Shown here: one piece after another, positions 1,982 through 37,203 of the stretch | Layout of the letters: each line of letters begins with the position of its first letter | How positions within the stretch are numbered: the stretch's first letter is position 1 | NCBI GenBank assembly: GCA_900320435.1 | Contig: ONSH01000005.1 | Coordinates: forward strand, 1 to 37,203 | Origin: an uncultured Prevotellaceae bacterium | GTDB lineage: Bacteria > Bacteroidota > Bacteroidia > Bacteroidales > Bacteroidaceae | Length of the DNA stretch: 37,203 bases | Direction: 5' to 3' | Made by a program: the position numbers and the translations under genes | The notes under the pieces: model-generated | The model's input: only the letters and a program-made list of their open reading frames with translations | Told to the model about the DNA's origin: nothing | Database searches by the model: none

Positions 1982-3211
1982 TTATGATGCGAGACGCTCG
2001 CTGCGGGCGAGGCGCTCCATGATGTAGTCTTTAGTGATGCGGATCTGCTTCTTCTCCGAGGACGGCGCGTCGAACTGAGCCTCCTGCATCACGTCCTCCA
2101 CAATGCTGCGCAGGCCGCGTGCACCGAGCTTGAACTCGACGGCTTTGTCCACGATATAGTCCAGAGCGTCCTCCTCGAAAGTCAGCTCGATGTCGTCCAT
2201 CTTGAAGAGCTTCTTCTGCTGACGGATGAGTGAGTTCTTCGGCTCCGTGAGGATGCGTCTGAGGGCCGTGCGGTCGAGGGGATCGAGATGGGTCAGCACG
2301 GGCAGACGGCCGATGAGCTCGGGGATGAGCCCGAAGCTCTTGAGGTCCTGCGGCTGGATGTACTTCATCATGTCCTTCTGGTCGATGCGCTTGACATTTT
2401 GCACACTGTTGTAGCCCACCACGTGGGTGTTCAGACGTTGCGCTATCTTGCGCTCGATGCCGTCGAAGGCGCCGCCGCAGATGAAGAGGATGTTGCTCGT
2501 GTCGATCTTCACATAGTCCTGGTCGGGATGCTTGCGGCCGCCCTTGGGGGGCACGTTGACCGTGCTGCCCTCAAGCAGCTTGAGCATGGCCTGCTGGACG
2601 CCCTCGCCGCTCACGTCGCGCGTGATACTGGGGTTGTCGCCTTTGCGGGCCACCTTGTCGATCTCGTCGATGAAGACGATGCCGCGCTCGGCAGCCGCCA
2701 CGTCGTAGTCGGCGGCCTGCAGCAGACGCGAGAGGATGCTCTCCACATCCTCACCCACATAGCCGGCCTCGGTGAACACCGTGGCGTCCACGATGCTGAA
2801 AGGCACGTCGAGCATCTTGGCGATGGTGCGCGCCAGCAGGGTCTTGCCCGTGCCGGTGGAGCCCACCATGATGATGTTGCTCTTCTCCAGCTCCACGCCG
2901 TCGTCCTCCACCTTCTGGGTGAGTCGCTTGTAGTGGTTGTAAACGGCTACGGCCAGAGTCTTCTTGGCCTCGTCCTGACCGATGACGTACTGGTCCAGAT
3001 GCTCCTTGATGTCCATCGGCTTGGGCAGGGGGCGTGCGCCCCAGGGCTTGGGTGAGAAGCCCGAAACCGCTTTGTGCTCCTGGATCACGTTCCAGGCCTG
3101 CTCTACGCATTCGCTGCAGATGCAGCAGCCGTCAAGACCCGTGAGCATCAGACTCACGTCTCTGTCGGCGCGTCCGCAGAACCCGCATCTGGCTGTTGAT
3201 TTCTTCGTCAT
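1982..3211 (-). CDS. clpX: ClpX, ATP-binding unfoldase subunit of ClpXP
   Basis: AAA+ unfoldase that recognises substrates and threads them into the ClpP chamber. The 409-aa product has the N-terminal zinc finger (Cys9, Cys12, Cys32, Cys35), Walker A GSTGTGKT (117-124), the GYVGED pore loop (150-155), Walker B IVFIDEID (178-185), and the sensor/arginine region [13 protein letters not shown]. The ClpP-docking loop, IGF in Escherichia coli, reads VGY here (265-267), a conservative variant that fits Bacteroidota ClpX. The C-terminal small domain carries [16 protein letters not shown]. The start codon overlaps the clpP stop as ATGA, which indicates translational coupling. All key residues are present. 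Confidence 0.98.
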
Positions 3212-3879
3212 TTATTCTGTTTCTCCAATATTTGGTCAATCATTCCGTAATCCAAAGCCTCCTGCGCCGTCATCCAGTGGTCGCGGTCGCTGTCGGCCCA
3301 CACTTTGTCGTAGGGTGTGTGCGAGTGGTCGGCGATGATGGTGTAGAGCTCCTGCTTGAGCTTCTGGATCTCGCGGGCCGTGATCTCGATGTCCGAGGCC
3401 TGACCTTGGGCGCCGCCCATCGGCTGATGGATCATCACGCGGCTATGCTTGAGCGCGCTGCGACGACCGTCGTTGCCGGCCACCAGCAGGACGGCAGCCA
3501 TCGAGGCGGCCATACCCGTGCAGATGGTGGCTACGGGCGAATTGATGAACTGCATCGTGTCGTAGATGCCCAGTCCGGCATACACGCTGCCGCCGGGGCT
3601 GTTGATGTAGATGCTGATGTCCTTGCCGGGATCGGCGCTGTCCAGATAGAGCAGCTGGGCCTGCAGCGTGTTGGCCGTGTAGTCGTCGATCTCGGTGCCG
3701 AGAAAGATGATGCGGTCCATCATCAGGCGGCTGAACACGTCCATCTGCGTCACGTTGAGCTGACGCTCCTCGAGAATGTAGGGGTTCAGATACTGATTCT
3801 GCATCGACACCACATCGTGCAGCGCCATGCTGCTGATGCCGGTCCGGTCTTTGGCAAATTTTTCAAAATCCTTGGTCAT
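3208..3879 (-). CDS. clpP: ClpP, serine protease subunit of ClpXP
   Basis: Tetradecameric cytoplasmic serine peptidase that degrades substrates delivered by ClpX. The 223-aa product has the full catalytic triad: Ser126 in GMAASMAAV, His151 in RVMIHQPMGG and Asp200 in ADSDRDHWM. The spacing (25 and 49 residues) equals that of E. coli ClpP Ser98/His123/Asp172. The N-terminus is about 28 residues longer than the mature E. coli enzyme and probably includes a propeptide-like segment. It sits 33 bp downstream of tig and overlaps clpX by 4 bp, in the usual tig-clpP-clpX order. Nothing is missing. Confidence 0.98.
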   Translation of the reverse strand: MTKDFEKFAKDRTGISSMALHDVVSMQNQYLNPYILEERQLNVTQMDVFSRLMMDRIIFLGTEIDDYTANTLQAQLLYLDSADPGKDISIYINSPGGSVYAGLGIYDTMQFINSPVATICTGMAASMAAVLLVAGNDGRRSALKHSRVMIHQPMGGAQGQASDIEITAREIQKLKQELYTIIADHSHTPYDKVWADSDRDHWMTAQEALDYGMIDQILEKQNK

Positions 3880-3912: not shown

Positions 3913-5274
3913 TTATTTCTCCTCCTGGAAGAGCTTGTTGAACTCCTCCTGGCTGACACTCTTCTTCTGGAGCTTCACGACCTCCTTGGCCTTGGCGCCG
4001 ATCTTGCGGTCTTCCGTGCGGCTCACGAGGCCCTCGATCTGCTGCTTGTCCTTGAGCATGCCGGCGGCGTAGTTCTCGATGGCCTCATCGGGCACGTTCA
4101 TCATGCCGTACTGGGCAAACTGCATGCGGGTCACCTCCTTGGCGGTCTCCAGCACGTCGTCCTGCTCCACCTTGATCTCCAACTGGTCGCAGAGCTGCTC
4201 CTTCAAGAGGTGCCACTTGAGCTCCTCGATGCTGGGAGCGAAGTTCTTCTCGAAGAAGGCCTCGTCCTTGTCGGGGTTGTTGAGCTTCATGATGCGACGG
4301 AGCAGAGCCTCGGGGAATTCCACCTTGCCCACTCTCTCGCAAACATACTTGCGCAGATCCATCATGAAACGGAAGTCGCTGTCGATGGCAAACTGAGCCT
4401 CGAGGGTCTTGCGCGTCTCGGCGCGGAACTCCTCCTCGCTCTTCACCTTGCCCTCGCCCAGAACCTGGTCGAAGAGCTCCTGGTCGAGCTTGTGGGCCTC
4501 GTAGCGGGTGATCTCGGTGATCTGATACTGGAAGTCGCTCTTCATGCCGGCGGCCTCCTCCTTCGTGATCTTCAGCAGGCTGGAGAGCTCCACCTCGCTG
4601 CCGTCATAGGCGGTGGAGGGGTTGAACGTCAGCACGTCGCCCACCTTGGCGCCCTCGAACTTCTTCTTCTCGTCGTCACTCTTGAAGTAGCCGGGCAGCA
4701 TCACGGCGTCCTTCACCTCGATACCGCCGGCCTTGGGAGCGCCGCCTTCGAGCTCGGTCATGACGCCCTTCACCATGTCCTTGTCCTGATAGTCCTGCAC
4801 CTTGTTGTAGCTGCCGGCGCGCTGGCAGTAGCCCTGGAGCTGCTGGTCGACGAGTTCGTCGCTTACCTTGATCTCGTAGTAGGGCACCTTGTCCTTGTCG
4901 CTGATCTTGCCGTCCATCTCGGGGGCCAGAGCCACGTCGAAGACGAAGGTGTATTCCGTGCCGTTCTCGAAGTCGATCTTGGGCTGCTTGTCCTCGTTGG
5001 GAAGGGGCTCACCCAGGATGTTGATCTTCTGCTCGCGGATGTATTTGTAGAGCTCGGCGCCCAGGAGCTTGTTCACCTCCTCGGCCTTCACTTCGAGTCC
5101 GAAACGCTTCTGCACCAGAGACAGGGGCACCTGTCCGGGACGGAAACCGGGCAAAGAGGCCTTCTTGCGGAGGTCCTTCAGTCCCTTTTCCACTTTTTCC
5201 TTGTAGTCTTCTTCCTTCAGTGTGACGGTCACGAGGCCGTTCACCTTGTCGATGTTTTCAAATTTGATTTCCAT
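3913..5274 (-). CDS. tig: Trigger factor, ribosome-associated chaperone
   Basis: Chaperone that docks at the ribosomal exit tunnel and shields nascent chains. The ribosome-docking loop shows the family signature GFRPGQVP (about residues 43-50) followed by LVQKRFG. A degenerate FKBP-like peptidyl-prolyl isomerase region follows in the middle, then a long helical C-terminal domain rich in Lys and Glu. Length 453 aa is normal (E. coli 432). The protein ends FNKLFQEEK. It starts 24 bp after lptB, and no TAnnTTTG element is visible in that gap, so it is probably transcribed from the lptB promoter together with clpP-clpX. Confidence 0.96.
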   Translation of the reverse strand: MEIKFENIDKVNGLVTVTLKEEDYKEKVEKGLKDLRKKASLPGFRPGQVPLSLVQKRFGLEVKAEEVNKLLGAELYKYIREQKINILGEPLPNEDKQPKIDFENGTEYTFVFDVALAPEMDGKISDKDKVPYYEIKVSDELVDQQLQGYCQRAGSYNKVQDYQDKDMVKGVMTELEGGAPKAGGIEVKDAVMLPGYFKSDDEKKKFEGAKVGDVLTFNPSTAYDGSEVELSSLLKITKEEAAGMKSDFQYQITEITRYEAHKLDQELFDQVLGEGKVKSEEEFRAETRKTLEAQFAIDSDFRFMMDLRKYVCERVGKVEFPEALLRRIMKLNNPDKDEAFFEKNFAPSIEELKWHLLKEQLCDQLEIKVEQDDVLETAKEVTRMQFAQYGMMNVPDEAIENYAAGMLKDKQQIEGLVSRTEDRKIGAKAKEVVKLQKKSVSQEEFNKLFQEEK

Positions 5275-5298: not shown

Positions 5299-6153
5299 TT
5301 ATTTTTCGGTTTGGTTTTCGTTTTGGTTTTCGTTTTCGTTAACGTCAGCGTTAGCGTTATCGTTATCGTTGCTTCCTCCCGAACGCTCGCGGTCCATCTT
5401 CTGGAAGTCCTTCAGGCGGAGTTTGAAGCTGCGCGTGAGGTATTTGTCGAGCACCACGGGATTTACGGCCAGCTCCTCGGGCGTGCCGTGGAAGAGTATC
5501 TGACCCTCGAAGAGCAGATAGGCGCGATCGGTGATGCAAAGCGTCTCTTCTACATTGTGGTCGGTGATGAGCACGCCGATGTTCTTCTGCTTGAGCTTCC
5601 ACACGATATACTGGATGTCCTCCACGGCGATGGGGTCCACACCGGCGAAAGGCTCGTCGAGCATGATGAAGAGGGGGTCGATGGCCAGGCAGCGGGCAAT
5701 CTCCGTGCGACGGCGTTCGCCGCCGGAGAGCTGGTCGCCCAGATTCTTACGCACCTTCTGCAGACGGAATTCGTCGATGAGACTCTCCAGCTTTTCGCGC
5801 TGATACTCACGGGGCTTGCCCGTCATCTCGAGCACGGAGGCGATGTTGTCCTCCACCGACATCTTGCGGAACACCGAGGCCTCCTGCGCCAGATAGCCGA
5901 TGCCCTTTCGGGCCCGCTTGTAGACGGGGTCCTTGGTGATTTCCTCGCCGCGCAGGAAGATGTGGCCGCCGTTGGGCACCACGAGGCCCGTGGTCATGTA
6001 GAACGAGGTCGTCTTGCCGGCGCCGTTGGGCCCCAACAGACCCACAATCTCCCCCTGGTGAACATTGAACGAAACGTTGTTCACCACGGTACGCTTGCCG
6101 TAGACCTTCACGAGTCCCTCGCTGCGCAATTCTGCTCTTTCCTGCTCTTTCAC
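5299..6153 (-). CDS. lptB: LPS export ABC transporter ATPase LptB with Asn-rich tail
   Basis: Cytoplasmic ATPase of the Lpt machine that drives LPS from the inner to the outer membrane. Numbered from the chosen GTG start (284 aa): Walker A GPNGAGKT (41-48), signature LSGGERRRTEIARCLA (142-157), Walker B FIMLDEPFAGVDP (162-174), H-loop ITDHN (196-200). The open frame extends 49 codons further upstream to an ATG at 6300, but that stretch crosses the predicted promoter at 6170-6177 and its translation does not resemble LptB, so GTG at 6153 (VKEQERAELRSEGLVK) is preferred. The last 24 or so residues (261-284) are an alternating Asn tail encoded by a near-hexanucleotide repeat; E. coli LptB (241 aa) lacks it. 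It is the first gene of the lptB-tig-clpP-clpX-recQ unit. Confidence 0.92.
   Translation of the reverse strand: MKEQERAELRSEGLVKVYGKRTVVNNVSFNVHQGEIVGLLGPNGAGKTTSFYMTTGLVVPNGGHIFLRGEEITKDPVYKRARKGIGYLAQEASVFRKMSVEDNIASVLEMTGKPREYQREKLESLIDEFRLQKVRKNLGDQLSGGERRRTEIARCLAIDPLFIMLDEPFAGVDPIAVEDIQYIVWKLKQKNIGVLITDHNVEETLCITDRAYLLFEGQILFHGTPEELAVNPVVLDKYLTRSFKLRLKDFQKMDRERSGGSNDNDNANADVNENENQNENQTEK
5306..5371 (-). repeat. Degenerate hexanucleotide tract in the 3' end of lptB
   Basis: On the minus strand this tract consists of 6-bp steps of the types AACGAT, AACGCT, AACGAA and AACCAA. It encodes the alternating tail in which Asn occupies nearly every second residue and D, A, E or Q the others. Such tracts can change length by slippage in whole codon pairs without breaking the frame. 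Confidence 0.75.
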
Positions 6154-6281: not shown

Positions 6282-7025
6282 ATGTATATTTCCGACTCAA
6301 TAGCGACCTTTGGTCGTTACCTTCAGCTCATGTGGCGCGTGCTTGCTCTGCCCGAACGCTGGCGCATGTTCGGCAGGGAGTACGTCAAGGAAATGGCCTC
6401 CCTCGGCGTGGACAGCCTGGGCATCGTGGTGCTCATTTCCTTCTTCATCGGCGCCGTCATCTGCATCCAGATCAAGCTCAACATCGCCTCTCCCTGGATG
6501 CCCGGATGGACGACGGGTTACACCACGCGCGAAATCATGCTGCTGGAGTTCTCCTCCTCCATCATGTGTCTGATACTGGCCGGCAAGGTGGGCTCCAACA
6601 TCGCCTCCGAAATCGGCACGATGAAGGTGACGCAACAGATTGACGCGCTGGAAATTATGGGCGTCAACTCCGCTTCTTTCGTCATCCTGCCCAAGATCGC
6701 CGCCCTCATCACGATGATTCCCTTCCTCGTCATCTTCTCGGCGCTGATGGGCTTCATCGGGGCTTATGCCACCTCGCTCGTGGGCGTCATCAACGTGGAC
6801 GACGTCACGGCCGGACTGCAGCACGACTTCAACCAGTGGTACGTGTGGATGTCGCTCATCAAGAGCCTCTTCTTCGCCTTCATCATCAGCAGCGTCTCCG
6901 CCTTCTACGGCTACACGGTGGAGGGCGGCAGCTTCGACGTGGGCAAGGCTTCCACCGACGCCGTCGTCTCCTCGTCCATCCTCATCCTCTTTTCCGACAT
7001 CTTCCTGACTTCCATGCTCTCATGA
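6282..7025 (+). CDS. mlaE: MlaE-family phospholipid ABC transporter permease
   Basis: Inner-membrane permease of the Mla-type system that moves phospholipids between inner and outer membrane. The 247-aa protein has several hydrophobic segments (about 48-70, 88-108, 140-170, 190-215, 225-245) and the family signature around GSNIASEIGTMKVTQQIDAL (about 107-126). The length is that of a typical MlaE. Its stop overlaps the start of mlaF (ATGA), so the two are coupled. The usual third partner, an MlaD/MCE substrate-binding protein, is not adjacent; the genes after mlaF are unrelated. It is transcribed divergently from lptB, another envelope lipid transporter. Confidence 0.92.
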   Translation: MYISDSIATFGRYLQLMWRVLALPERWRMFGREYVKEMASLGVDSLGIVVLISFFIGAVICIQIKLNIASPWMPGWTTGYTTREIMLLEFSSSIMCLILAGKVGSNIASEIGTMKVTQQIDALEIMGVNSASFVILPKIAALITMIPFLVIFSALMGFIGAYATSLVGVINVDDVTAGLQHDFNQWYVWMSLIKSLFFAFIISSVSAFYGYTVEGGSFDVGKASTDAVVSSSILILFSDIFLTSMLS

Positions 7026-9999: not shown

Positions 10000-10563
10000 A
10001 TGAAAAAGGTTCTCGTTTTGTTGGCCGTATTGGCTATGACTGTTGGCGCCAGCGCCAAAGGTTTTAATGACTACAACCGCGTAGAACTCGGCTACAGCCC
10101 CATGTTCGCCACCGGCGGCACCATGCACGGCTTTGAGGCTGCCTATGCCCGCGGCTTCCATCTGAGTCAGAAACACCCCATGTATATTGAGACCGGCGGT
10201 CGCCTGGCCTACAGAGGCGCCACGGAGACCAATTTCCTCCGTCTCACCGTACCCGTTGACTTCACCTGGCGCTTCACCGTGGGTCGCAGCGGCAACTTCA
10301 AGATCTCTCCCTACAGCGGCTTCACCTTCAACATCAACCTGCTGTACGATGTATTCGACCAGAATCAGTTTAAAGACCCCTACGGCGGCAACCGCTTCCA
10401 GGTAGGTTGGGAAGTAGGCTCCAAGTTCAACTACAAGGCTTTCGTTTGGGGTATCGGCTTCAATGTAGACTTCAATCCTCTCGTAAGCTTCGACAACGTT
10501 TGGCTCGGTGGAGTAAACACCTACACCAGCAACCTGTTCATCAGCGCAGGCTACGAGTTCTAA
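10000..10563 (+). CDS. Outer-membrane beta-barrel protein, array member 2
   Basis: Second array member, 187 aa and the shortest. The signal peptide is MKKVLVLLAVLAMTVGASA; the mature part begins KGFNDYNRVELGYSPMF and ends AGYEF with C-terminal Phe. It shares with members 3 and 4 the blocks DYNRVE-GY-PMF, RGFHLSQKHPMYIE, LRLTVPVDFTWRF and ISPYSGFTFNINLLYD, and a later NRFQVGWEVG block. The 67-bp gap upstream contains short direct repeats (ACCATTTA twice at 9963-9984, TTTAAAGT twice at 9982-9998) and no clear TAnnTTTG. It looks like a tandem-duplication product with the smallest loops. Confidence 0.82.
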   Translation: MKKVLVLLAVLAMTVGASAKGFNDYNRVELGYSPMFATGGTMHGFEAAYARGFHLSQKHPMYIETGGRLAYRGATETNFLRLTVPVDFTWRFTVGRSGNFKISPYSGFTFNINLLYDVFDQNQFKDPYGGNRFQVGWEVGSKFNYKAFVWGIGFNVDFNPLVSFDNVWLGGVNTYTSNLFISAGYEF

Positions 10564-11319: not shown

Positions 11320-11934
11320 ATGAAAAAAGTTCTCGTACTTTTGGCCGTTGTGACGCTTGCAGTCTCGACTGCAAGCGCCAACAAACTTGCCGGCGAAGAC
11401 TACAACCGCGTGGAAGTCGGCTACGCACCCATGTTCATGAGCGACATGTTCTATTGGGGCAATCCCTGGTCCACAGCGCATGGCGTCACGGGCGGATACA
11501 CCCGCGGCATCCATCTGAGCAAAAAGTGGCCCATGTATATCGAAGTGAGCGGCATGGTGCAGTACAACCACAGGTACAAAAGCAGCATCGACACCTCTCT
11601 GGATCTGTTGCGCCTGAACATCCCCGTGTCGTTCACGTGGCGCTTCACCCTCGGCAGCAGGAAGCTGTTTACGATCGCCCCGTATATCGGCCTGAACTTC
11701 GGCATCAACATGCTCTACAACATGAACGGCGACAATCAGTTCGACGACAACGACGACATCTACTCTGCGAACCGCTTCCAGCTCGGCATGGTGGAGGGTC
11801 TCAACCTCACCTACAAGAGATGGAACGCCGGCATCGGCTACGTCCTGGACTTCATGCCTCTGGACAAGTCGGACCTCTACAATGTGACCAACACCGGAGG
11901 ATCGCTGGTAGTCAGAGTCGGCTACGAATTCTGA
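11320..11934 (+). CDS. Outer-membrane beta-barrel protein, array member 4
   Basis: Fourth array member, 204 aa. The signal peptide is MKKVLVLLAVVTLAVSTASA. It shares EDYNRVEVGYAPMF, RGIHLSKKWPMYIEVSG, LRLNIPVSFTWRF, LGSRKLFTIAPY and NRFQLGMVEGLNLTYK with member 3 and ends RVGYEF. Acidic residues again cluster in one loop (NGDNQFDDNDD). It starts 30 bp after member 3, the same spacing as between members 2 and 3, and is followed at once by a strong terminator at 11962-11993, so it closes the array transcript. Confidence 0.83.
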   Translation: MKKVLVLLAVVTLAVSTASANKLAGEDYNRVEVGYAPMFMSDMFYWGNPWSTAHGVTGGYTRGIHLSKKWPMYIEVSGMVQYNHRYKSSIDTSLDLLRLNIPVSFTWRFTLGSRKLFTIAPYIGLNFGINMLYNMNGDNQFDDNDDIYSANRFQLGMVEGLNLTYKRWNAGIGYVLDFMPLDKSDLYNVTNTGGSLVVRVGYEF

Positions 11935-11948
11935 AAAGAGTTGATTGC

Positions 11949-12293
11949 TTAAACTTTAAAGAACACCCGAATCGGACATTCGGGTGTTTCTTTTTCTGCC
12001 ACAAGCTTGCCCGTATCCGTGAAGCCGGCCTTCTGCATCACACGCAGAGAGGCCTCGTTGTCGGCATAACAGTTGCAAAACAGGACCGCAAAACCCTCCT
12101 CGCGCAGCAGCTTCTCGCTGACGCGCCTCAACGCCTCAGAGGCCAATCCGCGACGGCGATAGGCCTCATCCACGCGATACGAAATCTCGGCCATGCGGCC
12201 GTCGCATTCGGAAGAAGGTGACGACTCGAAAGCCGTCACCTCCCCTACCTGTATGCCGTCGCATTCAATCGGAAACAACAAACTTCTTCCCAT
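11949..12293 (-). CDS. GNAT acetyltransferase, N-terminally truncated (possible remnant)
   Basis: C-terminal part of a GCN5-related N-acetyltransferase, RimJ/RimL-like. It shows the acetyl-CoA-binding motif A (YRRRGLASEALRRV) and motif B (NEASLRVMQKAGF). The chosen ATG at 12293 gives 114 aa, but recognisable GNAT sequence begins only at GIQVGEVTAF. The first 60-70 residues of a normal GNAT (beta1 to beta3, acceptor-binding helices) are absent because the frame upstream overlaps the 3' end of the BNR-4 gene by 29 bp and there is only its shadow. Either this is a broken gene or a short product is made. The last codons form the terminator hairpin of the convergent OMP array. The exact start is uncertain; the substrate is unknown. 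Confidence 0.6.
   Translation of the reverse strand: MGRSLLFPIECDGIQVGEVTAFESSPSSECDGRMAEISYRVDEAYRRRGLASEALRRVSEKLLREEGFAVLFCNCYADNEASLRVMQKAGFTDTGKLVAEKETPECPIRVFFKV
11962..11993 (+). terminator. Rho-independent terminator of the OMP array
   Basis: An 11-bp perfect stem AACACCCGAAT (11962-11972) / ATTCGGGTGTT (11978-11988) with loop CGGAC is followed by TCTTTTT. It lies 27 bp after the last OMP stop and inside the final codons of the convergent GNAT frame. The minus-strand side has only a poor T-run. Confidence 0.85.
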
Positions 12294-15200
12294 CGCGGAT
12301 ATAAATGCCCGGCTTGTCGGCCGACACACGGCGTCCGGACATATCATACGTAGCGCCCTCCGCGCCTGAAACGCCATTCTCTCCACGCACAAGATTCACC
12401 TTCGTCGGCGTGTAGACAAAGCGGAAGTTGTCAAATCCGCCGAACTTCTCGTTGCCGTTCGACGTATGGTTGTTCTCCAGGCCAATACGCACGGTCTTCT
12501 CGCCGTCGGTCTCAAACGAGAGAGAAGCCGTCTGCCAATAGTCCTGATTGGAAGGCGGAGTGGCCGTGACGCGAGCGGCATCACCCACTTTGGCGTAGAT
12601 GATGACATCACCGCCGCTGCCGCTGCGCCACACGTCGGCCGTCATCGTATATTTCCCCTCCGGCAGCTTCACGTCCTGATAGAGTCCGATGACGGAAGTG
12701 CCCCACTTTTGACGGATCCAGTAGCTCTTGCTGCCACAACGGGCAGCATCCGCCTTCGTGGCAAAAAAGCTGCTGTATTGGAGATCGCCTGTCGTGAGGG
12801 CGGTGATATCGTTTTCATTGTTGTTGGTGTAGCTCACTTTCCAGCCCTCAGGGATGTAGATGGCGCGGTCGCTGGTGACACCGCTGCCGGACATCACGCT
12901 GTAGCTCTCTTCGAAATCGGGATTGACGAGACTGGTGGGAAGATCTTCCTCTTCATAGGGCAGATCCTGCAGCTGACAGATTTCCTTGCGCGTCAGCTTC
13001 ACATCGTAGAGCATCAGGTCCTTGATGATGCCGCAGAAGTCCTGGTTGTCGTTGGCAACACTGGTGTCCCACCACTGGGTGCGTCCGATGTAGTTGCGCG
13101 TGTCTTTGGCCAGAAGATACAGCATATAGGCCTCATTCAGATTGGCGCCTCCGGACACATTTTCCTCGCCGTCAATATAGATGTACGTGGTGTGCGTGTC
13201 GGCGTCATAGGAAACGGCGAGCTTGGTCTCCGTGTTGGCCTTCAGCTGCGTCGTCGCATTCACCATCGTGGTCGTGCCGCCGTTGTATTTGATGCCGGCA
13301 GAGAGAGGATTGGCCCTCAGAAACAGGCTGTTGCCCGAGGCCGAACCGAAGTCGTAGATGCGGGGCATTCCCGTGAGGCGATTGGCCTTCACGGTGACGA
13401 GAAAGGTGAAAGAACGCAATCCGTCGAGCAATCCTTCTTCTGCAAGACCGTATTTGTTGGTGGGGAATCCGCTGGCGGTATTGCCCGTGAGATCCAACGA
13501 TTCTGCCAAAGCGTAACGCAGGTTTTTGGTGATGTCGCGGACAGGCACTTTCACGTCGAACACACGCTCCCCGTCACCCACAATAGCCGTGAGTCTCACC
13601 TCGGTGTCGCTCTTCTTCGGCCTCAGTATGCCGGAAGTACTGATGACGCTTTCATCGGAAGACGTCCACTGCACGTTCTGCCCGAACGAAACCGTGGGCA
13701 GCACGAGATCGGTGCGTGCCTCCTCCGGAATCTGAAGCGCTTCAAGAGCTGTTCCTTCCATCGATGCAGAGACCAGCTGCTGCACCTCCAGAGGGCTGGC
13801 GGCCTTGCTGTAAGTAGCGGCTGCGATGCACGTGTGGTTGAAGCCTTCGCCGCGAACGAGCAGATTGTCGAAATCGAGCCCCTCGATGTCAACGACCTGA
13901 TCCACAAGGCCGTTGCGATAAACGGCGAGCCTCTGACCGTCGTAGGTCATGGTCAGCACCCATGCGGGCATCTTGGTGGGATGATTGTCGCCGCTGGTGC
14001 CCGAACTCTGCGTCGCCCAATCGTCACTGGTGAGCAAGCGGTTCTGGCTCCGGTATGTTGTGCCGTTGACGGTCAACACAGGATACGACGAACTGCCGTC
14101 AAGGGAATACGTGAAATTGCCGTCGTCGGATTTCACGATGACGCCCTCGTATTGTGCCGTATTCATCGCAATGGCCATATTCAGCGTGCGATTTGCCTTC
14201 AGGCAGGTGCAGTCGACCATATACGGCGAGAGGTCGGAAACGCTTTCCTCCCAATTGTGATTGCTGTAGACGGCCGTAGGATAGCCCAAGGGGTAACCCT
14301 GCTTCACGATCCAATAGTAGTAGTCGCCCTGCATCCACACCAGTCTCAGAGGACTGTTTTTCGAGCCGGGAATGACATACGGACGGGCATTGTTCTTCGG
14401 TGAATTCTGAGTGATTTGCTGCGAGCCGGACACAGTGCCCTCGTCATTGACGGTGTATTTCCAGATCTCATACACGCCGTCCTTGTTATACTGACCGTCA
14501 GTCGTCGGGATGCTGAGATAGAGGTCGTTGATGTTGTCGGGATCCAAAGCCATGCCGCCGCTGTAGCACTTCTCCGTGGAGTTCCAATTCTGATGGAATG
14601 CATGGCCTCCATACTGCACCCATGTGTTTTTCCACGAAGAACCGTTCCAACGGGCATACCAATAGACGTGCGAGGTCTTGGCGTCGTCGATGTGAGGATA
14701 GGCAATGACGGGATGCTCGTCGGCGTCGAGGGCAATCTGCCACACCCAGTTGCGGATGTTGGCCGACTTGTCCACAATAGTGGCGGGATACTGGCTGGCA
14801 TACGAGTCCGTCTTGCTGACATTGAACACCCCGCTGCTGATCACGCTCAATTGCGTGCCGTTGAGGTCGCGCAGGATGGGACCGTTGCCGTGATTGATGT
14901 CAATCACGTTGAAGTAGAGCCAGTTGGGCATCTCGTTGTCAGGATGCCCGGTGGTGTAGGAGACATAAATCTTATCCTTGCCGTTGCTCTGATACTTGGC
15001 GTAAGGACGCGCGCCGGTGGACTGCACGATCTGCTTCGGGCCAAAATCGAACGAGCAGTTGTCGTTGGCGTCGGGCATCGTGAGACGCGCGATGGTGGGA
15101 TGCCAGTTGATGCCGCGCCAGCAGAGATAGATGTGCTCGGGATCGTCGCTCAGGATAAAGGGCGAAGGATAGGTCGTATTGTTGGCCGTAGCCAGATACT

Positions 15201-35620: not shown

Positions 35621-37203
35621 CTATTCCTCCGTTTTGTTCTCATTTGTCAACTCGTCGGCACGGCTCTTCCACGGACGTTCGCCGAAAATCTTCTTCACGT
35701 CGTCCGCAAAGATCACCTCGCGGTCCATCAGAATCTGCGCCAGCTCGCCGTGACCTTCCCTGTGCGCCAGGAGTATCTTCTTGGCGCGCTCGTATTGCTC
35801 GGCCACCATCTTACGGGCTTCTTCGTCCATCTTCTCGGCCGTCTTCTCGCTATAGGGCTTGGCCACCTGATACTCGCCGCCCATATTGTAGAATGAGATG
35901 TTGGGCAGCGATTCGCCCATGCCCATATAGGCTATCATGGCGTACACCTGATGAGAGACGCGCTCCAGATCGTTCATGGCACCGGAGGAGATGTGGCCGG
36001 TGAAGAGCTCTTCGGCTGCACGTCCGCCCAAGAGGGCACACACCTCGTCGAGCATCTGCTCGCGCGTGGTGATCTGTCGCTCTTCCGGCAGATACCAGGC
36101 AGCACCCAAGGCGCGTCCGCGCGGCACGATGGTGACTTTCACCAGCGGGTTGGCATACTCCAGATGCCAGCTCACCGTGGCGTGTCCGGCCTCATGCAGG
36201 GCGATGGTGCGTTTTTCCTCTTCAGTCAGCACCTTGGTCTTCTTCTCCAGTCCGCCGATGATGCGGTCCACGGCGGCCAGGAAGTCCTCCTTGCCCACCT
36301 TCTCGTGGCTGTTGCGCGCAGCAATCAAAGCCGCCTCGTTGCAGACGTTGGCAATGTCGGCGCCGGAGAATCCGGGCGTCTGGCGCGAGAGGAAGTCCAC
36401 ATCGACGGTGTCGTCGATCTTCAGCGGCCGCATATGCACCTGGAAGATGGCTTTGCGCTCGTGCACGTCGGGCAGATCCACATATATTTGGCGGTCGAAA
36501 CGGCCGGCTCTGAGCAGGGCTTTGTCCAGCACGTCTGCGCGGTTGGTGGCAGCCAGCACGATGACACCGCTGTTGGTGCCGAAGCCGTCCATCTCCGTGA
36601 GCAACTGGTTGAGTGTATTCTCGCGCTCGTCGTTGCCGCCCATGGCCACACTCTTGCTGCGAGCGCGACCGACGGCGTCGATTTCATCGATGAAGACGAT
36701 ACAGGGGGCTTTCTCCTGAGCCTGACGGAAGAGGTCGCGCACACGGGAGGCGCCCACGCCGACAAACATCTCGACGAAGTCACTGCCCGACATGGAGAAG
36801 AAGGGCACATCGGCCTCTCCGGCTACAGCTTTGGCCAGCAATGTCTTACCCGTGCCCGGAGGGCCCACCAGCAAGGCGCCTTTCTCTCCGGCTACAGCTT
36901 TGGCCAGCAATGTCTTACCCGTGCCCGGAGGGCCCACCAGCAAGGCGCCTTTGGGAATCTTGCCGCCCAGATCCGTGTATTTGTTGGGATTCTTGAGAAA
37001 CTCCACGATTTCCTGCACCTCCATCTTTGCGCCTTCCTGTCCGGCTACATCCTTGAAGGTCACGCGGTCTTTGTCGTCGTCCTTGTCATTCTTCTCGTGC
37101 AGCTTGGCGCGACTCTTACCTACATTGAAGATGCCGAGCGGTCCGCTCGCACCGTCGCCGCCTCCGGCTCTGCGCATGATGAAGATCCACAGGAAGATGA
37201 AGA
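35621..37203 (-). CDS. ftsH: ATP-dependent zinc metalloprotease FtsH with duplicated Walker A (N-terminus outside window)
   Basis: Membrane-anchored AAA+ protease that removes damaged or unassembled membrane proteins. The window lacks the N-terminus; the first visible residues ([11 protein letters not shown]) are the end of a TM helix. Then come a Gly-rich linker, [20 protein letters not shown], the P-loop, Walker [14 protein letters not shown], the SRH region [13 protein letters not shown] and the zinc site HEAGH. The oddity is that the 23-residue block holding GPPGTGKT occurs twice in direct succession, encoded by an exact 69-bp tandem duplication (36815-36952); normal FtsH has one copy. 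The frame stays open to a normal C-terminal region. It may be a real mutation, a reversible allele or an assembly error. Confidence 0.95.
36815..36952. repeat. Exact 69-bp tandem duplication inside ftsH
   Basis: 36815-36883 and 36884-36952 are identical over all 69 bases, with no intervening bases and differing flanks on both sides. The unit encodes 23 residues from [10 protein letters not shown] to LAKAVAGE, i.e. beta1, the P-loop and helix alpha1 of the AAA+ domain. Identity without any synonymous change implies a very recent event or an artefact. Confidence 0.97.

Follow-up and report, generated by a model that had tools for sequence, protein, structure and literature searches.

The ftsH gene at the end of the window carries a perfect tandem duplication of 69 bp, so that the sequence as given encodes an FtsH with two Walker A copies, the second of which is probably an assembly error. 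Judging from the assembled sequence, we attribute the duplication to the draft assembly, in which overlapping pieces would have been abutted without merging (probability about 0.93). In the organism, ftsH presumably has one unit, like its relatives. An assembly artefact was the last of the explanations listed in the preliminary description; we favour it on account of 12 like arrays, 10 of them near contig ends, and a split ispE gene.

The duplicated segment of ftsH

The window (the whole stretch of DNA analysed, 37,203 nucleotides) spans the entire contig C90 in a draft genome that comprises 149 contigs and 2,084,525 bases and is 84.96% complete. Position 37203 is the contig end. The contig terminates within ftsH, 251 bp beyond the array at 36815-36952, and the 5' part of the gene, including the protein start, is at the end of contig C35. 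The features in the window are as follows.

35621..37201, minus strand: 3' part of ftsH, with the AAA module and the M41 peptidase (open reading frame, TIGR01241, Pfam, overlap with C35)
36815..36883, minus strand: 69-bp unit, copy nearer the 3' end of the gene (Tandem Repeats Finder and exact comparison)
36884..36952, minus strand: 69-bp unit, identical copy nearer the 5' end of the gene (Tandem Repeats Finder and exact comparison)

FtsH scored 776.7 bits against TIGR01241 in two stretches (cut-off 600), which places it in the family. The Pfam domains AAA and Peptidase_M41 were both found, the latter with 190.6 bits, and the translation contains HEAGH, the zinc motif of the M41 peptidase domain. 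The N-terminal part, translated from C35, has hydrophobic stretches as judged by eye.

Tandem Repeats Finder reported 36815-36952 with a period of 69, 2.0 copies, 100% match and 0% indels. The two units are identical base by base, and the number of copies is exactly 2.00, because zero further matching bases flank them on either side. The frame 35621-37201 stays open across both copies, and the translation reads [23 protein letters not shown] twice, once per unit. The repeat search, the base-by-base comparison and the translation thus agree on two identical adjacent 69-bp units and two P-loops inside ftsH, as first described. A perfect tandem copy of 69 bp is far beyond chance. The length of the unit is divisible by three and the unit is codon-aligned, which would be a one-in-three coincidence if the duplication were an artefact. 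A megablast search of plasmid sequences with 504 bases gave no match, and a literature search for a tandem duplication of the FtsH Walker A motif found no paper. Elsewhere in the window, Tandem Repeats Finder detected short 6/12-bp tandem repeats of the TTTTCG and GTTATC types at 5303-5370.

A protein search with FtsH gave matches in 101 of 101 genomes, one of them that of the window, and the two nearest species by FtsH were G030 and G031. The halves of the query matched G030 on C88 at 11680-12000 and 11932-13191, overlapping by exactly 69 bases, and G031 on C27 at 13048-13368 and 11857-13113, overlapping by 66 bases; each of these genomes therefore has one unit. That unit differs from the window's at 15 of 69 bases in G030 and at 14 of 69 in G031. 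When the doubled 46-residue segment was used as the query, the only full-length match among those listed, best first, came from the window's own genome (1 of 139 genomes of the genus). The same was found, again among the matches listed, for 1 of 395 genomes drawn from the class. Four genomes of the genus set and two of the class set gave no match of any kind; the sets overlap, and their counts are not summed. Among 114 ftsH loci, the window's included, the exact motif GPPGTGKT occurred once in 93 and twice in one, that of the window, while 13 had no open reading frame carrying both search motifs and seven lacked the exact motif. Alignment of 32 FtsH sequences showed the segment to be invariant at 18 of its 23 residues and at least 90% conserved at the other five.

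The preliminary description had named diverged copies in related strains as the sign of an old and tolerated duplication. The FtsH comparison confined the doubling to the window's genome among the matches listed. We rejected an old duplication on two grounds: the copies show no difference from each other, in contrast to the divergence of the two nearest species, and no other genome of the 139 or 395 has the doubling among those matches.

A recent event has to be weighed separately. A real in-frame duplication of 69 bp, fixed or frequent, could either be tolerated, with the additional P-loop looped out, or damage FtsH. The preserved frame and the intact remainder of FtsH agree with it, as do the identical copies, since the nearest species differ from the unit at the 14 and 15 bases given above. 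On the other hand, the doubled segment is highly conserved and appears in no other genome of either set among the matches listed. Its junction has no homology, and half of the genome yielded 11 more arrays like it, 10 of the 12 being near contig ends. We therefore consider such a duplication improbable. There is a correspondingly small chance that the population truly holds a very recent P-loop doubling, tolerated or losable, with FtsH activity differing between cells.

Similar arrays in the same genome

The sample comprised 100 stretches of the window's genome, 13 of which were all N; together with the window, this gave 88 pieces and 1,022,775 bases, about half of the genome. Twelve perfect tandem duplications of complex sequence, each in two copies, were present, with units of 24 to 72 bp (periods 24, 27, 28, 33, 35, 36, 37, 38, 55, 67, 69 and 72 bp), all shorter than 99 bp. 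They are listed below, each being a perfect two-copy array.

C90: FtsH array, unit 69 bp, 251 bp from the contig end
C79 (L219), from 431: unit 36 bp, start within about 650 bp of a contig end
C5 (L134), from 627: unit 24 bp, start within about 650 bp of a contig end
C61 (L171), from 11956: unit 33 bp, start within about 650 bp of a contig end
C146 (L186), from 424: unit 72 bp, start within about 650 bp of a contig end
C121 (L251), from 416: unit 27 bp, start within about 650 bp of a contig end
C126 (L256), from 410: unit 37 bp, start within about 650 bp of a contig end
C17 (L146), 3065-3120: unit 28 bp, shifts the reading frame
C108 (L158), 10279-10388: unit 55 bp, shifts the frame, far from the ends
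C66 (L176), 3681-3815: unit 67 bp, shifts the reading frame
C141 of genome G000 (L181), 6303-6373: unit 35 bp, splits ispE
C134 (L264), from 8829: unit 38 bp, shifts the frame, far from the ends

The distances to the nearest contig end were 226, 251, 324, 331, 409, 415, 423, 430, 430, 626, 3986 and 5105 bp. Ten of the 12 arrays were thus 226-626 bp from an end, whereas the part of the sequence within 700 bp of one amounts to 10.8% (P = 1.2e-8). The first sample, with eight of nine arrays near a contig end, had suggested this rule; 20 contigs sampled afterwards yielded three more arrays, two of them near an end. The floor of 24 bp was fixed after the first sample; without it, that sample has 12 arrays, 9 of them within 700 bp of an end. 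The arrays listed above do not include complex ones with a period of 20-23 bp (in L133 and L156, a 21-bp array in L158 and a 20-bp array in L251) or low-complexity ones, four in the first sample and two in the later one. A low-complexity array of 7-bp units of the TCAATTA/TCAATTG type occupies 3244-3425 of L154 (G000:C104).

For comparison we took 149 pieces (1,011,603 bases) from G030, G031, G037, the ftsH loci of relatives and named genomes. This DNA, which lies mostly away from contig ends, held no perfect two-copy array of at least 24 bp. Counted by contig ends, 40 control pieces with 68 ends had no array (P = 0.012 if the rate of the window's genome applied). No array of at least 24 bp was found in 213 kb of G030 or 186 kb of G031. 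G031 has two arrays of 21 bp; the same rule left out one complex 21-bp array and one low-complexity array from the comparison, both in G031.

The excess over the comparison DNA is also what would be seen in a mutator lineage that truly makes many short tandem duplications, with the FtsH array among them. In such a lineage, however, 10 of 12 arrays would not fall so close to contig ends (within 700 bp), and a split ispE would not be expected; the two species nearest by FtsH are free of such arrays in the stretches just given. We regard this explanation as extremely unlikely.

Homology at the 12 junctions was 0-3 bp, with a mean of 0.58 against 0.67 by chance. Six of the 12 periods were divisible by three as compared with four expected (P = 0.18), so there was no significant respect for frame. 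In C141, the 35-bp copy splits ispE into two frames, which match positions 92-177 (80.6 bits) and 166-262 (55.4 bits) of TIGR00154; each piece alone falls below the whole-protein cut-off of 138.7. The ispE frame was open, with 266-297 amino acids, in six of six relatives searched. The second piece has one match in the window's genome, and a further ispE copy may lie outside the 85%-complete assembly. By our own reading of the translations, an apparent arginine repressor in C66 is put out of frame by the 67-bp copy, and the 28-, 55- and 38-bp copies (C17, C108 and C134) shift other frames. In a search with the C66 piece, G030 matched at 66% and G031 at 65%, and the matched stretch contained one stop. 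This case adds little, because that stretch takes in sequence ahead of the gene.

A duplication of biological origin would be expected to stand alone, and the 11 further arrays therefore count against a single event in ftsH. A fixed recent mutation, as had been proposed, fits poorly with 11 more like arrays in 1.02 Mb, with the position of 10 of the 12 near contig ends and with the split ispE.

Contig ends and the proposed assembly step

Two further stretches of the window, one observed and one proposed, bear on how the array could have arisen.

37105..37203, no strand: contig-end overlap common to C35 and C90 (exact 99-bp end overlap)
36884..37203, no strand: putative terminal piece of 320 bp beside the main contig, with the 69-bp overlap unmerged (geometry and array positions)

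Of the 70 whole contigs in the sample, eight more pairs have an end overlap of exactly 99 bases, and with the low-complexity filter on, no other end-overlap length from 20 to 299 was found among these. The COBRA paper (PMC10914622) describes contig-end overlaps of maxK for metaSPAdes and MEGAHIT and of maxK-1 for IDBA_UD, with 99 bp in its simulations; in PMC7111523 the values are n for IDBA-UD and n-1 for metaSPAdes, the opposite of the former. On either account, the 99-bp end overlaps suggest that the genome was assembled from short reads on a de Bruijn graph, with k reaching about 99 or 100 at most. The overlap of C35 and C90 is a k-mer-type contig break inside ftsH. A contig end of the same type was observed in L182 (G000:C142, 4113-4775), whose last 99 bases copy a stretch 564 bp upstream.

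We propose a true overlap of 69 bp between a terminal piece of about 320 bp and the main contig, an overlap that would be too short for the largest k-mer to merge them. Read pairs or local assembly would then set the pieces side by side, and the overlap would be written twice. The FtsH array has the properties that such a step would leave. Its two identical copies are adjacent, the junction shows no homology beyond chance and the unit is shorter than k; arrays of the same kind recur in the assembly, near contig ends and without regard to frame. The arrays far from the ends, in C108 and C134, would be explained only by assuming internal joins.

Ns inside contigs were found at three places, in L141 (C12) at 4951-4963, in L169 (C119) at 1048-1108 and in L220 (C80) at 11649-11699. 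These runs of 13, 61 and 51 N are either scaffold gaps or masked stretches. Duplicates flanking N gaps were sought at the three gaps of the window's genome and were not found. Because the array has no Ns and these gaps have no flanking duplicates, the exact assembler step that would have produced the duplication is only inferred.

Other mechanical origins were also considered. Slippage is unlikely, because the array has zero junction homology. A k-mer-graph loop arising from a one-unit genome is likewise unlikely, as the junction would offer no shared sequence to form one. Unit lengths equal to values of a k-list (59, 69, 79) were rejected by the observed periods of 24 to 72.

A direct repeat of 69 bp could be lost via recombination or slippage. 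This general property would suit a reversible switch, in which cells gain and lose the second unit and turn FtsH activity down and up, as the preliminary description had suggested. We found nothing to support it. The second unit occurs in no related genome among the matches listed (1 of 139 in the genus and 1 of 395 in the class, in each case the window's own), and without junction homology there is nothing to promote regain. Moreover, if one- and two-unit cells were mixed, the assembly graph should break at the edge of the array, but the break node is 152 bp away. A switch is therefore hardly credible here, and an unmerged overlap is the reading that we retain.

Comparison with known systems

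If the arrays are assembly errors, many perfect short duplications can be present in a single uncurated draft genome. These mimic recent mutations, split genes or yield odd proteins such as an FtsH with two P-loops. Screening for exact two-copy tandem arrays that lie near contig ends and have a unit below k would be a simple way to flag them.

Curated score and domains identify the gene product as FtsH, an ATP-dependent zinc metalloprotease (TIGR01241). It is unusual in having two P-loops in the sequence as given, where relatives have one among the matches listed. Phase-variable coding repeats recur at one site with varying copy number. The FtsH array is likewise a tandem repeat inside coding sequence, but it has exactly two copies and was present in one genome only among the matches listed (1 of 139 and 1 of 395), so that a same-site repeat varying between relatives was not seen in these sets.

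Known assembly errors offer another parallel. False tandem duplications have been described in animal genomes (PMC4662242). Chen et al. (2020, PMC7111523) give an account of local assembly errors, which are suspected of being prominent where IDBA-UD was used. In a second type that they describe, from metagenomes assembled with IDBA-UD or CLC, overlapping flanks are kept in duplicate with Ns between them. Unlike the scaffold-gap duplicates described there, the FtsH copies abut, with no Ns between them. As in those errors (PMC7111523), truly overlapping sequence would have been kept twice in the FtsH array.
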